A stretch of DNA of 64,000 bases from Ehretia macrophylla (Eukaryota > Streptophyta > Magnoliopsida > Boraginales > Ehretiaceae), in assembly GCA_037974665.1 (NCBI GenBank), contig CM075767.1, positions 88,872,644 to 88,936,643 on the forward strand. The letters run 5' to 3'. Positions 1,401 to 34,138 of the stretch are shown here, in pieces (positions within the stretch are counted from its first letter, which is position 1; each line of letters begins with the position of its first letter). Position numbers and translations under genes: made by a program. The notes beneath the pieces are model-generated. The model was given only the letters and a program-made list of their open reading frames with translations, did no database searches and was not told the origin of the DNA.

Positions 1401-4400
1401 TGTAACGCCCCAAACCCTCATGAGACCGGAGGCTCTACTAACCATGCTATTCTCAACCCAATCCCAAACTCGGTCTCAGACCACCTAAAATGTAACGCCC
1501 CGACTCAACCCCACGCTAAAGGTTAAGTCTGGACCCGACAAACGGACAGAGTCTCCCCTGTACCGTGGACATTCTGAAAGCCTGTAAGCAACCAATAAAG
1601 CCACAAAACAACCTAGAACTCCAATTCTAATTAAAGACTCAAACTTTAAGGCCATCCGAGCCTTAAAACATTCAAACAGTTAGAATCATGCAAGCATACA
1701 TCCAACTTCACTTCTTTACCAAACCGCTTATCATGCCACTCCATGATAGCTTTTAAGCATTCTTAGAAATTGAAAACAACCAGTCATTCACTCCCAAGCA
1801 TGCAGAGAAGCTAAGAGCAGAAATATAAGTTATTACATGCCATAGTTCATATCTCCTACTACAATCAACTAGCATTCAGCTTACAATCACTCAAACATAT
1901 ACATAAGCACTTAGGTTACAAAATAGAAAATAAGGTAGAGCAAACAAGATCTCCACATAATAGCAAGAGCCATAAATCCACCTCACGCAATTAGACACTG
2001 CAACTAAGGCAACTCCTCCTCCAAATGCACCACCTGAAACATGTTAGCGAGGTATGAGCAACCACTGTTTCCCAGTGAGGGATAAAGTCTCCCGGGGCGT
2101 GCAATGCAACAAGTAATACAGTTAAACATTAATAGCAATTAAAACCATTCAAGAATGACAGCAGATTAAGTAACCACACATTGAAAAGGATACATTACAC
2201 TTAACCCCAACACTCCAATCTTCACTTGATCTTCATTCACGATCCACGAACCACGATCACTGTGCCGGCATAATCCCAATCACTCCAGCGGGTGTACTCC
2301 GGATGTACCCCGATAATCCTACGACCCAACATCCCCTGGCAATCTCTGGACCAGGCAAATGAGGGACTAGGGCATGGAGTTTGAATATCCACTGGCAAGC
2401 CCTTTGCCGCCCAGCCGATATACAACACATCTGCCCCTGACACTATGGTTGCGCAACCACTATGCAATGAACTTATCAATGGCAAGACAATATCAACAAT
2501 ATAAGCTATAACACATAGGAGGATCAACAAATTAGGTTGACCTCGAAGCAGTTAGAATAGAAGCAATTTACACAAGCAATTAAGCAGTTTTACAAAGGGG
2601 CATATTCAAGATACACATAGAACTATACCAAAAGCTCCAAAACAACTAGAAACCACATTTAAACACACAAGGAGTCATGCCATGATTTTAGAAGCGTGAA
2701 ACAACTGAATTTGCACTTAAACCCCTTTGTTATTCAAGCTATTTTCCTTCCAAACTCATGTTAGAGATTCAAATTCAAGGGAAAGCTATACCAATATTCT
2801 AATTAGCTCTTAAGGTACCCTTACAACCCTCAAACGCATTCAATTACCCGCAATTACCCCAAAAGCCCCAATTTCCCTCTTATAGCTTTGAACTACACAT
2901 ATCTTATCCGGGCTTCAAACAAGGGTTAACAAAGCTTCTATAGCACCTAGGTAGCCTAACAATACCAAATGTGAAGCTCAATTCTACCCGGATTAGCATT
3001 AACCCGAAACCCCTTTTAAAAAGTCGGCTATGTCGCGTTTTAGCTAAGTTCCGAGCAATTAAACTACATGGGGTCATTAGACTATCTTCATTAATATCTA
3101 TAGCACCTAACTATAGTATTGAATCAAACCCGAAAGCACATTTTATCAAAACCTTAAAATTTACACTATTCATTGTCTTCTTTAACTTGTCATTTCAAAA
3201 TCTAGCCATAAACTATGCCAATAGCTTGCAAAAGAATGTTCACTAATCATTTTAGAAGGTTTTGGAAGCATTCATAAGCATTTATATCACAATATACAAC
3301 AATTACAAAATTCAACACAAACCCTAACATTCAAAGAAATGCATATAAATGTTTCTCCCTCACCTCTACTAGTTTCCATGATGCAAGTTTGGCTCAATGG
3401 ATCCACCAAGCATGTAATAGAACACATATTTATCACAAGAAACCTCATAGACGTGATTCACAGCCAAATATAACAACGAGAACAATAGCTAAGTAGGCAA
3501 TACTAGCTCAATTATAGCAACTTATGCAATCAAAATTATTCTAACTTCCACCTATCACTACACAACCTTAGCATGCTACTATTATAACTTCGAGGCAGCC
3601 CAAAGGTCACCATTACAAGCGTAGAGATTACACACCACACAGGAGCACACATTTGCACCTAAACCAACCATTTCAACTCAAAAACACCAACAATTTAGCT
3701 TATTCCACCCAAACCACCATGACCCTCCAACTACCAACATTTTTCCCTATCTAATAAAAGGGTTATAAACCATATAATAGCATAAAATAAGCAATCTAAT
3801 GGGTGCACAAAAACTGCCCAACGAAACAGCCCCTAAACGCCCAAAAATAGAAAAATTCAGCAAGCTACATTCTCCATTTATTTTGCTCCATTTTGCAATC
3901 TCAAGTTATTTTATTATGCTAGATAGGTTCATTAACATATATGAGCATTATATAAAATCTAAGAATCAAGATTAGACACAACTTAGGCATATAAATCATT
4001 GAACAACTCAAAATAGCCAATTTCAACAAAATATGTTCTATACAAGAAATTAATCGGTAAAGTCTTCTCTAACACCTATTTAGCAAGATACAAATGCAAT
4101 CCTAGCATTTTATGATGTAAAAATAAACTTTGGAAGATTTGAAAAAAAATTCTCTCACCTTTGTTTCGCAAAATAAAGGCAAAAACGATCGGTAGAAAGA
4201 TGCTAGACATCGACACGAGTCCAAAAATGCTTGGTTTGCGTCTTGGTTCCGCTTCTAGCTCAAGATATAAGCAAAATAGTGAAAAATCTACTATTCTTAG
4301 GGTTTAGACTGGTCACGGCTGAAGCAAGAAGAAGATGAGCAATTTTGGGATTTTTTTGGTGTTTTATAAGCTTTAATGAAAGTCAAAGGTCAAGTCTTCG

Positions 4401-4930
4401 GTCAAACCCGTGTAAACCAAAATAGCCCTGCGCAACCTTACGAAAACGGCCATAACTTCTTCTAGAAAACTCTAATTCACGAACGGTTTGAAGCCTTAGA
4501 AACTAGACTCATAGAGCTTTCCAACCATATCTAATTTGATACCTAAATCTTCCCCAATTGGTTCAGATTTAATTCCAAAGTTGACCCAAAATTTGACTAA
4601 TTAACCTTGCATTTTTATTTCTAATCCCAAGTTTGCCTTTCATTAAACATTTTAAAAATTTCCACCTTGTCCTAGTTGGTCAATGTAGATGAAAAGTCAA
4701 CTAGTTTAATCAAAGAATGTGAAAGTCAACAAGATGTAATTTAAATGAACTTTAAATGCAATTTTAAATTTTAAAACACTAAATAAGTCATGTAAATGCA
4801 CATATTATTTTTCAAATAATGATTAAAATAAATGAATGCACATGTAATGAATGCTCGGGTTCTCACAGCTACCATTTAAGATAACACATAATAAATGCAA
4901 TTAAATACGTGCCCATTTTGGGGTATCACA
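1401..4930 (-). repeat. Left LTR of the inverted-LTR element (minus orientation)
   Basis: Read on the minus strand, it starts tgtgatacccc at 4930, right after a polypurine tract, and ends ggggcgttaca at 1401, about 3530 bp. It is homologous to the LTR at 6304-9872 but clearly diverged: the U3 starts share little, while the U5 half shares several blocks, for example the tacatccggagta motif near 2300. A second copy of the terminus lies 90 bp inside, at 1491. Short open frames here (2237-2530 minus, 2971-3246 plus) show no recognisable protein and are probably chance. Confidence 0.85.
2063..2545 (-). other. Conserved LTR hairpin module (left LTR, inverted-LTR element)
   Basis: Minus-strand version of the module seen in all full LTRs here. 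In order it has a gagg...cctc hairpin around a caacct..tttgttg loop (near 2545-2517), the palindrome tggttgcgcaacca (near 2450), the core gggcggcaaagggcttgcc (2412-2394) with gctgg/ccagt flanks, gggtacatccggagtaccc-like arms (near 2300), and a cactg/cagtg stem near 2075-2063. Confidence 0.6.
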
Positions 4931-4948
4931 TCCTTCCCCCCTTAAAAC
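4931..4948 (-). promoter_or_regulatory. Polypurine tract of the left (minus) LTR
   Basis: On the minus strand, aaggggggaagga lies directly against the LTR start at 4930. This is the usual plus-strand primer site of LTR retroelements. Confidence 0.75.
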
Positions 4949-5173
4949 AATTGCGTCCTCGCAATTCATCTTCCAATAGAAATTGACATCAACTGAAGTC
5001 CAACTCTGGTTACTCTTCATCGATTTCTGTAGTAAGAACACTGAAAAAGAATGCACAAAGGAAGACACAAGAAGAAATCGCAAGAGTATTGCTTAAGGGT
5101 TCCCAAGTAATAAGGCCAAATAAAGGCTCCAACGAACAGCCAATCAAAAATCTTAATAAGAATCCCAATAACG

Positions 5174-5187
5174 TGGTATCAGAGCTT
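5174..5187 (+). promoter_or_regulatory. Primer binding site (initiator Met-tRNA type)
   Basis: tggtatcagagctt has the sequence complementary to the 3' end of plant initiator Met-tRNA, as used by many Ty3/gypsy elements. Unusually, no plus-strand LTR precedes it. The inverted half-internal ends only a few bases upstream. Confidence 0.8.
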
Positions 5188-5639
5188 AGTAGCTCACAGC
5201 CAGGACAGGGTCCTTGGTCTGTTGGGTAGTAATCTCGAGTGCGTGCATGTGAAGTGTGTCTTGAATTGGTACGTGTGCTTGTTTGGAAGACTTGTGTGTC
5301 TTGAGTCTATATGTGCCCTATATGACTTATTTGTGTAATAAGTGAAAATTGTGTGATATGGTATTATGTTATGTGATTATGTGTGCACATATGTGACCTC
5401 ATTATGCAATAAGTAAAACTTCTATGGTATGTTTATTTATATAGTTAGATATGCATGTAAGTGATTCCTTGAGTGTTTACCTACCTTAGTTATTTGTAAT
5501 AAAGTGTATAAGTGTTTATCATATGTAAAATCCACCATATACATGCATTATCCATTATTGTGGTAAGTGAACACTTTTCCCTATAAAGAGATGACAGTGG
5601 TGGCTTGCTTGAAGATGTGGACCAACAGCAAGAGGAAGA

Positions 5640-6240
5640 GTTGATCAATTAGTATTCTCTCTGGGATTCTTATTGGTATTTTCATACGGGATTCTATAGT
5701 AATATTCTTATTTGGACTTTTGTTGGTATTCTTACTCGGCACGTATACATATATGAGTAGTCTTTTTCGGGATTCAATATGGGGATCCTCAATTGGTGTA
5801 TTTCTACTGGGCTTCTTATTTGGTGCTCCCGTTGAATTCTTATTTGGCTTTCATTGTTTGGTGACCTAAGAATAATGCTCGGGGATTCTTAATAATATTC
5901 TTATTCAGCAATAATGATTGATGGTCTATCTTGAGATTCTTATCTGCTATAATTATGGTATTTTTGTTTAGAGATTTTCGGTTGGGCTTCTCGTTTAACA
6001 AGTACATTGGGAATTCCTATGTGATGTTCGTATTCGAAGGGACCCTTAGTCGGACTTCTGGATTGGTATTCTTTTGGCATTCTTACGAAGATCTTTGATG
6101 ACATTTTATTGGCATTCATGAGAAATGGGTTTCTTGGGAGTTCCATTTGAAGGCTCTTATTGGAGTGTTTCTTCGGTACTTCTACTTGGTATTCCCTATG
6201 ATTTTCGCATTCAAGCTTCTTATCCAGATTGTTCAAAATG
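5640..6240. repeat. Degenerate short repeats (ggNattcttatttgg type)
   Basis: Motifs such as gggattcttattgg, ggtattcttac and gaattcttatttggc recur every 15-40 bp across this AT-rich stretch, with much drift. Related motifs occur inverted at ~5100-5170. No function is evident; this may be an old minisatellite inside the element. Confidence 0.5.
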
Positions 6241-6285
6241 CATATAAAGAGATCAATTCAAACAAGAAATTGCGAGGACGCAATT

Positions 6286-6303
6286 TGTTTAAGGGGGAAA
6301 GAG
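6286..6303 (+). promoter_or_regulatory. Polypurine tract of the right (plus) LTR
   Basis: aagggggaaagag directly precedes the LTR start tgtgatgccc at 6304, mirroring the tract at 4931-4948. Confidence 0.75.
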
Positions 6304-9300
6304 TGTGATGCCCAATAATTTGCATCATAGTCATAAATAATTGTAGCATATCTTTTGTGCATTTTAATGTGTTTTATTTATAGTTTAAATATGTTTATTT
6401 GATGGTCACTATTCATAAGAAAATTTACTGTCTAAATTGCTTAGTTTAATATTTTTTCCTAGATAATATGACTTATAAAAGGAATCTAAAACTTGTAGTT
6501 TTAGATTTTAGAGGTCGAGAACATGCATTTGAAAAATGATTTGAGTTTCGTGTGAATAGTGTTACATAGGTGAAACATTAGTTTTAATTAGTTAGCAATT
6601 ATAGGAGTTTTTAACATGGTTTTGCATTTTTCTCATGATACTTGTCATTTAAGAGGCATGAGAAAATTTGAATTACTTGCATAGCACGTCGGGAAGGCGG
6701 GTAGAAAAAATATTTTTTTGTGTCGTAATGAATAGTAAAAAAAAATAAAAAATTCAGCATTTTGATTTTTTTTCATTTAGCTTGCTTTGACTTGGATTAA
6801 AACTCCCTAACCAAACCATTTGACCCAATAACCCAAACCCTTGACCCATGAACCATTTTTAACTCTTGTAACCCATTATTTACCAAACAAAAAAAAATCA
6901 GCTCAAAAAACCCCCTCCCCAAACCCGTGAGTCAACGGAGCAAAAAAGGAAGAAGAAAATTGTTAGTTTTCAACAATTTCATCCATTCCAAGCCTCATTT
7001 TAGTGCTCTTGAGCCTAGCAAAGCCATCTCCAAGCTTCTTCTTCTTGTCTAGTGGTGAGAGATGCATAATTTTGAGTTTTTAAAGTTAGGTTACATTTAT
7101 GTAAAATTTTGTGATTTGATATATCTTGCTTATATGTGCCTATCTATGCTTAAATTAGCCTTTATTATGATCATAGAATAATCTTTTATAGTTATTTGAA
7201 GAATTTTATGGTTGAAAATGAAGTTTGGAGACTTGGGGAAGATGATGAATAGTATATGTGAATAGTAACCTGCGAATTTTGGAGTTTTTGCATTTTAATT
7301 ATTTTATTGCTTCTTATAGTTGCTATAACCCTTGAGAATGCTATATGTATCATAAAAATGGTGATAACTTGACTATAATTGGAAATTTAGCTTGAAATGC
7401 AAATAGGACCTTAAAACGAAATGTTGAGTTATACATGTTTGATGATGTAGTTGGTCTTAGAAGTGTTAGGAAGCTTTTAAAATGTAATTACGATGCTTAA
7501 TTGTTAATCGGATTATGTAGCTGTAGTTCAAATCACTAAAGAGATTTTTCGGTGCTTTTGTGTTAACATGCTTAAAAATGTGATTTTGTGACATTTAGTT
7601 GCATCATAAAGTGGCTATATGGGATTAGTGAAGCCAGATTTGAAGTTAATTATCTTGCTATGTGTTTTATGTTATGTTGAAGTTAATGGTTAAAGAAACT
7701 TGAAACTCATGATTTGGTTAGTTGTTTAGTGTGAAAAATAGTGTATGAATCCTCTAATGCTCGTGTTGCTAGTTTATATATGTGTTTTGGATGTAGTTTA
7801 AGATTTTGCTAAAGCTAACTTAATGGTGTAGCTTAAATGTTTGTAATAATGTCTAAATGAAGTGTAAGAATGTTATACATGCTAGAGTGTTATCATAGTT
7901 AGTTAAATGCAAGAAAAGTTTATAAACAAGCAAAGCCCTGATTTGGACAGTCCACTGCCCTGCCTTTCGAAGCTCTTTTGACATAGTAAACGTGTTCTAA
8001 AATTAACGAAATTTGTACAGAAGCTAGATTAGGAAGTTTAGAGTAAATGTTGATTTCTAGGACTAAGGTTAATTCTAAATTTTTAGCCCTCTGATCACAT
8101 CATTTCCGAAATGTAGCTAAAAAAATCGCTGGTTCTGCCCAGCTATGTGTAGTTGCACTGTAAAGGCTATAACTTTTGGAATTTAACTCGGAATTGAGCA
8201 CCGTTTGAACCTAAAATTAACTACAATTGAAGAGCTACGTTTATACATAAAAATCAGATAATTTGGAGGCCATTAGCATAGGTAACTGATTGAATAAAGT
8301 TAAGCTTCTGCTAGAAAGTTGGAAAATGAACTTGCTTCCGTGAAAGTTTACATGTTAAGTGTTGAAAACGTGCTTGGTAGTTGATTTTATTTTGGTGGTT
8401 AAATGGGGTTGAGCCATTAATGTGATTTTATTGTGTTGGTTACGAATGTCTCTAAGAAATTCTTTGTGATAAGTATATGTTCTATTACATGCTAGGGTTG
8501 ATCCATTGAGCCAATCCAAGGTGTTGAAAGTAGACTAACGCTAGTTCTTGTATCCTTTAGCTACCTGGTAAAGGTGAGGGAGTTACATTCTTTTGTGCAT
8601 CTTAATTTGTTTACTGCTCATAAATTATATAGTTTAATATGATTGCTTATAATTACGTGTACTTTGATATGAATAGACTAAATATACACTTGACTTTTAT
8701 TTATATTGTTATATGGCTTATTTATTGTAATCTACGTGCGAGGGCAACCTACTTTGTTTGTCCCTCATTTATGTGATTCTTGAACTATATTGCCATTGCT
8801 TGAATTATTGTGATCAAATATCGGGTTGCGCAACCTTTTCGAACACGGTAGCGTCGAGAAACACGGGCGGCATCGGGCTTGCCGTGCTCCCTCGACTACC
8901 ATGGTGCCTATTTCCTTCTCGCTGAGGCATGCTCCATTACCCCAGAGGCGTGGTTCACCTGCTGAGCGTGGACCTACCTCAGGAGAAAGGGTCGTAGGAT
9001 TGGGATACATCCGGAGTATCCCAACTTGTTGGTGTATGGGTTTGCCAGCATTAGCGTGAAGTTCGTGGCTCGTGGTCCGAGATTGAAGACTTGAAGTGGA
9101 ACCGTATCCTTTTTATATGTGTTTGATTACTTGTTTACTTGGTTGGTTTATTTGATGTTGAATATGCTTTTATCCTGTTGCATATTATGTTGCATCACCT
9201 CCCTCACTGAGTATACCGGTTGTATACTCACCCTCGTCTCTAACACCTTTCAGGTTCAGCACCTTCGCAAGGTGATACAGGGAAAGCTCGAGAGTTACCG

Positions 9301-9872
9301 TGTTTGGTTGTGTTGGCTTTTATTATTAGTACCTACGAATCCATGTGAATTAGTGAAGTGATTTGAATTGTAATTTGATTGGCACTATAAAAACTCGGCT
9401 TGTAATTGTATTGGATCTTGTTTGTATTTGGTTCGTAGGTGGCCTGTAATAACTTAAAGGACTATGTTATTGTTTAATTGTCGTGCATGCTAGCTTGGGT
9501 TAATGGAGTTAGTAGGCTAGATTAATAAATAAGACAATTGAAGAGATAAAGTTAGAATGATATGATAAGTGACTTTATAACATAGTATTTCAATATTTGA
9601 GGCCTATGCATGTTTGTGTACCTATTTTGTTGAGTCTAAAGCTTGGATGACCTCAAGACGAGGCATAGCTTAGTGGTTGAAGTTGAAATATATGAGAATG
9701 TTGGATTATGGTTTCATAGTTGTATTCTATTATTCGCAGGTTTTTAATTAGTCCTACAAACAGGGGAGACTCCGTCCGTTTCTCCCTAAATTCTGTGTCC
9801 GGGGTTTGGAATTGGGTTGAGAATAGCGTGATAAATAGGAATTCCGGTCTCGTGAGGGATCGGGGCGTTACA
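6304..9872 (+). repeat. Right LTR of the inverted-LTR element (plus orientation)
   Basis: Starts tgtgatgccc after the polypurine tract and ends ggggcgttaca at the target duplication, 3569 bp. It matches the left LTR in inverse orientation. The U5 half contains the conserved hairpin module and a ctttcag acceptor-like site near 9253. Short open frames at 8765-9010, 8826-9059 and 9119-9361 overlap the hairpin module and are not convincing genes. Confidence 0.85.
8740..9230 (+). other. Conserved LTR hairpin module (right LTR, inverted-LTR element)
   Basis: Five inverted repeats in order: gaggg/ccctc around caacctactttgttt (8740-8766); the palindrome ggttgcgcaacc (~8824); ggtag..cgag/ctcgactacc (8847-8900) enclosing the core gggcggcatcgggcttgcc; gggatac/gtatccc around atccgga (~9002-9022); and tgagtatac/gtatactca (9208-9230). 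The stem bases differ from those in the LARD and gag-pol LTRs but still pair. Confidence 0.7.
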
Positions 9873-9914
9873 GTGAACAGTTAATACATAAAGGAATTGT
9901 GCCCTCAACATGAC

Positions 9915-33900: not shown

Positions 33901-34138
33901 CTTGCTTGCTGTGCCCATTTTTGGAGGGCAAAGTCGAACGTTTTCATCAGTTTCAGGCCATTTTTCTTCTTTTGCTATGTTTTTCCGACCCGGATCGTAC
34001 GTCGTGAACTGTTAAAATGACGACAACCTGACTCGTGGGACATCAGTGGGCCCTACAACGTGTCGATATTATGTCTTGCGAGGATGCTACGTTGTTGAGG
34101 CGGATAGGTTGTCGTTAAGCCCATTGGCCTTTTCAAAT
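33901..34138 (+). repeat. Isolated 5S spacer fragment inside the retrotransposon block
   Basis: About 238 bp of 5S intergenic spacer in plus orientation, from the cttgctcgctgtgccc segment to the gcccattgggcc segment. No 5S gene is attached. It sits between the broken LARD-1 3' LTR and the internal tail of another LARD copy. Confidence 0.9.

Follow-up and report, generated by a model that had tools for sequence, protein, structure and literature searches.

How an LTR retroelement can come to lie in a genome with a U5 end at each of its outer borders is the question raised by positions 1401-9872 of a 64,000-nucleotide stretch of Ehretia macrophylla DNA, here called the window. This segment is a single insertion inside a 5S unit of the window. 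A 5-bp target duplication at the exact LTR ends, a mark of LTR retrotransposons, is present and perfect, with GTGAA at 1396-1400 and again at 9873-9877 (both forward strand). The outer termini are both U5, TGTAACGCCCC starting at 1401 and GGGGCGTTACA finishing at 9872. When the flanks are joined without the element and with one GTGAA, 30 of 30 site-spanning alignments to window 5S units run uninterrupted at 87.5-91.4% identity, the count being of alignments that extend from query base 280 to 320, with all others dropped beforehand. A polypurine tract (PPT) is present at the inner side of each LTR, of about 3.5 kb. The initial annotation had described a retroelement with inverted LTRs and an intact duplication, two U5 outer ends, a 5S unit restored by removal of the element and a PPT for each LTR, and all of this is borne out. 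Compared for direct orientation, the two LTRs proved to be inverted and from two families, and the insertion has one PBS and two PPT-LTR pairs, with no 5′ LTR ahead of the PBS.

The left arm is the 3′ LTR of a family here termed A (1401-4930, reverse strand; 3530 bp), inverted so that its U5 is outermost at 1401 and its U3 starts at 4930, and 98.0% identical to the LTR of a normal A element, L047. It is followed, also on the reverse strand, by a 240-bp 3′-terminal piece of the A internal region (4931-5170), delimited by comparison with normal A copies and including the inverted A PPT (4931-4947). At 5170/5171 this meets family B with no shared and no added bases, a junction that is identical in L039 and L040. 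All of the B part is on the forward strand. Its internal region (5171-6303) opens with three of the four bases found between LTR and PBS in normal B (5171-5173) and a PBS-like TGGTATCAGAGC (5174-5185), which we take to be of the initiator-tRNA-Met type, and closes with the B PPT (6291-6303), after which the B 3′ LTR (6304-9872; 3569 bp, 98.2% identical to the LTR of normal L041) runs to its outermost U5 at 9872.

The two arms are two different, at most distantly related, non-coding families. Direct comparison of the arms yields patches only and no long match. At E ≤ 1e-5 the LTRs have three patches in common, namely 69 nt at the U5 end (83%) and inner stretches of 64 nt (84%) and 94 nt (72%); a distant common origin of the A and B LTRs is possible, since a few weak patches of 58-80% emerge when the whole arms are scored more loosely. 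Resemblance between the internal regions is limited to their two ends, the PBS end with 98 nt at 85% and the PPT end with 53 nt at 83%. The LTRs had initially been taken for diverged copies of one, which they are not; the accompanying suggestion that two different RNAs were involved is upheld by the two distinct families, each having normal direct-LTR elements elsewhere in the assembly (1.58 Gb in 20 contigs). Normal A (L047, L048) has direct LTRs of 3.53 kb and an internal region of about 1.3 kb, and normal B (L041, L042) has 3.58-kb LTRs and about 1.13 kb, each totaling around 8.3 kb. Their 5-bp target duplications are CAAGG (L041), GATAA (L042), GATGG (L047) and ATGTG (L048), and the LTR pairs of the four are 97.3-99.9% identical. 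In the internal regions no ATG-initiated ORF exceeds 83 aa for A (L047) or 68 aa for B (L041).

Large non-autonomous LTR elements (LARD/TRIM-like) have LTRs, a PBS and a PPT with no long reading frame. Families A and B, at about 8.3 kb, resemble them in all of this, but have internal regions of only 1.1-1.3 kb against LTRs of 3.5 kb, and the chimera is a rearranged product rather than a family. DIRS-type elements have inverted terminal repeats and no target duplication, and that identity is rejected as 1401-9872 has the duplication and its arms are not repeats of each other. So too is Cassandra, which PMC7215508 gives as a TRIM with 5S sequence inside its LTRs: a 5S unit from the window finds nothing similar within 1401-9872 at E ≤ 0.01.

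If one helper serves both families, a helper that we infer, their common U5 end and their likeness at the PBS and PPT ends are what would be expected. Another element, L061, has 298-bp LTRs that end in the same GGGGCGTTACA as families A and B, a reverse transcriptase (RT) domain (Pfam PF00078) and an integrase match that is sub-threshold at 30.6 bits against a cut-off of 32.6. The criterion for the Ty3/gypsy lineage is the pol order RT-RNaseH-integrase. L061 gives no match to either arm of 1401-9872 at E ≤ 1e-4, and no link to A or B was found beyond the U5 terminus. Its RT and integrase reading frames (C1:13009500-13018499) are fragmentary, and it adjoins a degraded 5S array.

What happened at 5170 can be read against normal elements. 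Four normal B copies, compared at the LTR end, continue with GACG (or the variants GAGG and GAAG) and then with TGGTATCAGAGC. The B side of the chimera junction retains ACG-TGG, the cut being 3 nt outside the PBS, and so the B part is complete save for the 5′ LTR and one spacer base. Seven stretches of normal A or close relatives (six loci, 91.5-97.8% to the arm) continue beyond the A break with other sequence. That break, 240 nt inside the 3′ LTR border, is not at a known landmark of reverse transcription, and neither side of the join has a base in common with the other parent. By our own arithmetic, a break placed at random in an 8.3-kb element would come no more than 4 nt from the LTR/PBS border about once in 1,700 times.

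The junction is not confined to the window. With positions 4900-5500 as query, the best 40 of 4,200 candidates, which were the ones scored, include three full-length matches, all on contig C4: the window itself, C4:86733775 (97%) and C4:32593867 (96%). The left-end pattern, with up to one mismatch, finds the same three chimeras and two places without similarity to flanks or arms (a reversed control gives 7 matches). The right-end pattern at zero mismatches finds the three chimeras and three plain uninterrupted 5S units (C5, C6, C10), a set that lies apart from 280 one-mismatch places, 94 of them listed. A search for the B PBS without the normal A at -4 gives four matches, which are the three chimera loci and one element with an altered LTR end. 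GTGAA is common to all three loci. The left flanks of the two other loci match those of the window at 97.8% and 97.6% over 1,400 bp, gap-free, and the right flanks at 94.9% and 96.5% over 3.0-3.3 kb; other 5S registers match the window flanks at 87.5-92.2%, apart from short pieces of two kinds (47 and 197 bp) that reach 92.9-93.6%. Between the two other loci the match is 97.8% over 15.7 kb, collinear and including 1.6 kb outside the array, and their element copies differ from the window copy by 1-3% depending on the part. The same target duplication and register-matched 5S flanks at three loci point to one insertion of the chimera, later copied along with the DNA around it, and their spread, on this comparison, is array or segmental duplication of one insertion. 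The initial annotation had looked to a genome search for the same arrangement, with an own target duplication for each copy as the sign of a mobile form. The junction does recur, at three loci; the separate duplications do not, and mobility of the chimeric form is rejected. Long near-identical repeats are hard to assemble, and an artefact has to be considered on that account, yet a junction present at three loci argues against an assembly inversion or error, the more so with element copies that differ by this much, two loci collinear beyond the array and an intact target duplication; an artefact is extremely improbable.

The 5S surroundings have features of their own. Related elements have ends inside 5S genes at L002 (C1:1074327) and L006 (C1:1531801), both bordered by GTAGT, which suggests that 5S DNA has repeatedly been used as a target. 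Within the window, 22457-57282 is a block of mutually related repeats (70-97%) with a 236-bp fragment of a 5S unit at 33901-34136, and past 57976 the 5S array has the opposite orientation.

Tandem 5S units are near-identical target sites, and it is conceivable that A and B inserted separately, at the same position of neighboring units and in opposite orientation, and that a later deletion fused the A interior to the B PBS edge, leaving one GTGAA on each side. The related elements in 5S genes just mentioned (L002 and L006 flanks, GTAGT) and the 280 one-mismatch right-end matches outside the set examined lend this some color. Yet neither the left-end matches (up to one mismatch) nor the zero-mismatch right-end ones include any other insertion at the site, the deletion would have had to meet the 1 in 1,700 chance of ending so near the LTR/PBS border, and the second case, described below, would need a like coincidence again. 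Separate insertion is quite improbable.

That second case came from a screen for PBS sites with unusual upstream bases, which gave 54 places. Forty contexts of 132-133 bases were read, 39 of them from the 54 and one from the four matches of the search for the B PBS without A at -4. A U5-type LTR end, in some cases with changed bases, precedes the PBS in 39 of the 40; in the one other, at C1:4389222 (L066), an inverted U3 end does. The surrounding sequence, read in pieces, appears to be a second insertion of the same U5-U5 layout elsewhere in the genome. It spans C1:4378628-4392578, on a separate contig, has its own target duplication, TGTAT, on both sides, and shows U5 at each outer end (C1:4392578 and C1:4378628), with an inverted LTR of 3,341 bp. 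At 1,038 bp from the PBS is a further U3 start of that LTR's family (98% over 185 bp), oriented as in a 3′ LTR and preceded by a PPT that ends in GGA. A probe from the right LTR at U5+1000 matches the left LTR at 97% (100 bp), one at U3+500 gives no match, and between them lies a stretch similar to window repeats. Apparently some 6.2 kb of another repeat sits within the right LTR.

The join of the second insertion reads GGGGTATTACA-TC-GG-TGGTATCAGAGC. The one normal relative read (C12) has GG as its spacer. TC complements GA, with which the element's own PPT ends, so that the PBS edge with 2 nt abuts a U3 start preceded by GA. With a 201-bp join query, in which the LTR ends at 183, the best 40 of 1,030 candidates include a full 1-201 match at this locus only; 36 of the other 39 stop at 180-187 and three extend to 191, 193 and 195. 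Those three (C17:51530901, C10:57362371 and C8:52635795), which match 8-12 bases beyond the LTR edge, may be chance extensions or further joins.

The join bears on rearrangement of a normal element in place after integration, by inversion or ectopic gene conversion. The imperfect inverted repeats formed by the LTR ends make an exact inversion of one LTR conceivable, especially for the second case. For the window, one element cannot supply the two LTR families present, and the later inversion inside a normal element that had been offered as an alternative is discounted. For the second case, the TC after the inverted U3 end fits a PPT end and is unexpected beside an integrated 5′ LTR, and the spacer of the normal relative read is GG only, keeping in mind that this is one relative and that agreement of two bases arises by chance 1 time in 16. 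Rearrangement in place is very improbable.

Other surveys put the two cases in perspective. There are 73 exact B-type PBS sites (69 + 4), three of which are copies of the window event. An inverted U3 end next to a PBS has 99 matches for the ATCACA type, three of which, with odd spacers, were read; the ATTACA-type search has 1,318, and among the 100 listed one has a TCGG spacer and is the second insertion. As the 40 chosen contexts gave one event, and 96 of the 99 ATCACA-type places are outside those read, the number of U5-U5 insertions is a lower bound. PBS-PBS palindromes with exact 12-base arms within 30 bp number zero. The three ATCACA-type places that were read were rejected as U5-U5 joins. 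C17:32035306 (L118) is read as a nested insertion, because matches to other LTR starts end no more than 4 bases from the U3 boundary and its PBS is preceded by 10 bases similar to a normal U5/PBS spacer. The sequence at C19:14099379 (L116) is unlike these LTRs, and that at C2:53522454 (L117) looks like RT coding sequence, presumably of Copia type to judge by its motif. Two other arrangements were noticed. At C17:60327784-60328358 two PBS sites of the ATCACAAAGTGG type, about 530 bp apart, face away from each other, possibly a head-to-head pair of small-LTR elements. C7:61114014-61128207 (L019-L022), L043 and L044 have tandem LTR-internal units of these families, each about 4.6-4.8 kb, as in multi-LTR complexes.

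In the standard scheme (PMC12789967), minus-strand synthesis begins at the tRNA, and it takes plus-strand transfer to give a cDNA two complete LTRs. A cDNA that fails plus-strand transfer would have one integrable end, U5, and two such cDNAs joined at their inner ends would form a linear DNA with U5 at both ends. Very probably, this is what was inserted here: aberrant cDNAs lacking plus-strand transfer, joined tail to tail, and integrated by their two U5 ends. In the window case, non-coding A and B elements would have been reverse-transcribed together. The B cDNA would have been finished up to the PBS, with plus-strand transfer incomplete and hence no left LTR, and the A cDNA would have ended 240 nt inside the 3′ LTR border, beyond the PPT. 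Their inner ends would then have been joined, either by a jump of RT from one minus-strand 3′ end to the other or by end joining. The product would have had a tRNA-primed U5 end on each side, and integrase supplied in trans would have made the normal 5-bp duplication. Both cases have a PBS edge with 2-3 spacer bases on one side of the join and, on the other, a 3′-LTR fragment ending 240 nt (window) or 2 nt (second case) inside; the spacer bases could reflect template left undegraded beside a tRNA-bound PBS. The two families, the B break at the PBS edge, the single target duplication and the second case with a duplication of its own support this model, and with it the earlier proposal of an aberrant cDNA whose two U5 ends were used by integrase; an origin at the cDNA level is well supported as far as sequence can speak to it. 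With the helper of A and B itself deduced, so is their co-packaging.

The joining chemistry is another matter. Host end joining of two double-stranded cDNA ends, in the manner of 2-LTR circle formation, has somewhat less than an even chance of being the route, as against a template jump by RT. It fits the lack of microhomology at 5170 and the second case, where an apparently unprocessed U3 end (GA-TGT) is joined flush to the spacer. But the A inner end lies 240 nt upstream of the LTR, beyond the PPT, for which end joining needs plus-strand synthesis there or gap repair, and a jump onto an incomplete minus strand would explain that end directly. Of the minus-strand template switch in the initial annotation, the aberrant cDNA from two RNAs stands, and the switch itself is not separated from end joining of incomplete cDNAs.

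Sabot and Schulman (2007, PMC1950507) describe complexes from Triticeae, rice and maize, with an inner LTR, similar outer LTRs and target duplications, and attribute them to a switch of template from one co-packaged RNA to another. The chimera is like them in being one integration with a 5-bp target duplication whose cDNA is attributed to two co-packaged RNAs. Those complexes have three LTRs, two highly similar outer ones and an inner one, and are explained by switching between R regions (PMC1950507). The chimera, unlike them, has two inverted LTRs of different families, a PBS-edge join and U5 at both outer ends; of their hallmarks, 1401-9872 has the flanking target duplication, and lacks both the high similarity of the outer LTRs and the common inner one. 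Its inverted, two-family U5-U5 layout makes it a variant of the template-switching-complex idea. A search of the open-access literature found no description of a U5-U5 retrotransposon insertion. In retroviral 2-LTR circles and autointegration products cDNA ends are joined without homology. In autointegration, which is known to give inverted forms, a processed LTR end is joined to an internal site, and there is older retrovirus work on inverted unintegrated DNA. In contrast to autointegration products, the 5170 junction contains no LTR end, and the chimera is a linear form integrated with a target duplication.

Tentatively, and with a good deal of doubt, the two cases may be instances of a recurrent salvage route for cDNAs left without plus-strand transfer, with tail-to-tail joining, even between families, followed by integration through the two U5 ends. 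If so, element-rich genomes would accumulate U5-U5 but not U3-U3 insertions at a low steady rate, and the U5-U5 insertions would record which families share one particle. Because their halves come from two families, such chimeras would also give evidence of co-packaging, something not easily observed otherwise in non-autonomous elements. If the present reading is right, the insertion is a fossil of a reverse-transcription intermediate, with the break at the PBS edge marking the minus-strand stop, and a DNA with U5 at each end can be integrated in vivo. Such joins, surveyed genome-wide, would allow the failure of plus-strand transfer to be measured in assemblies.
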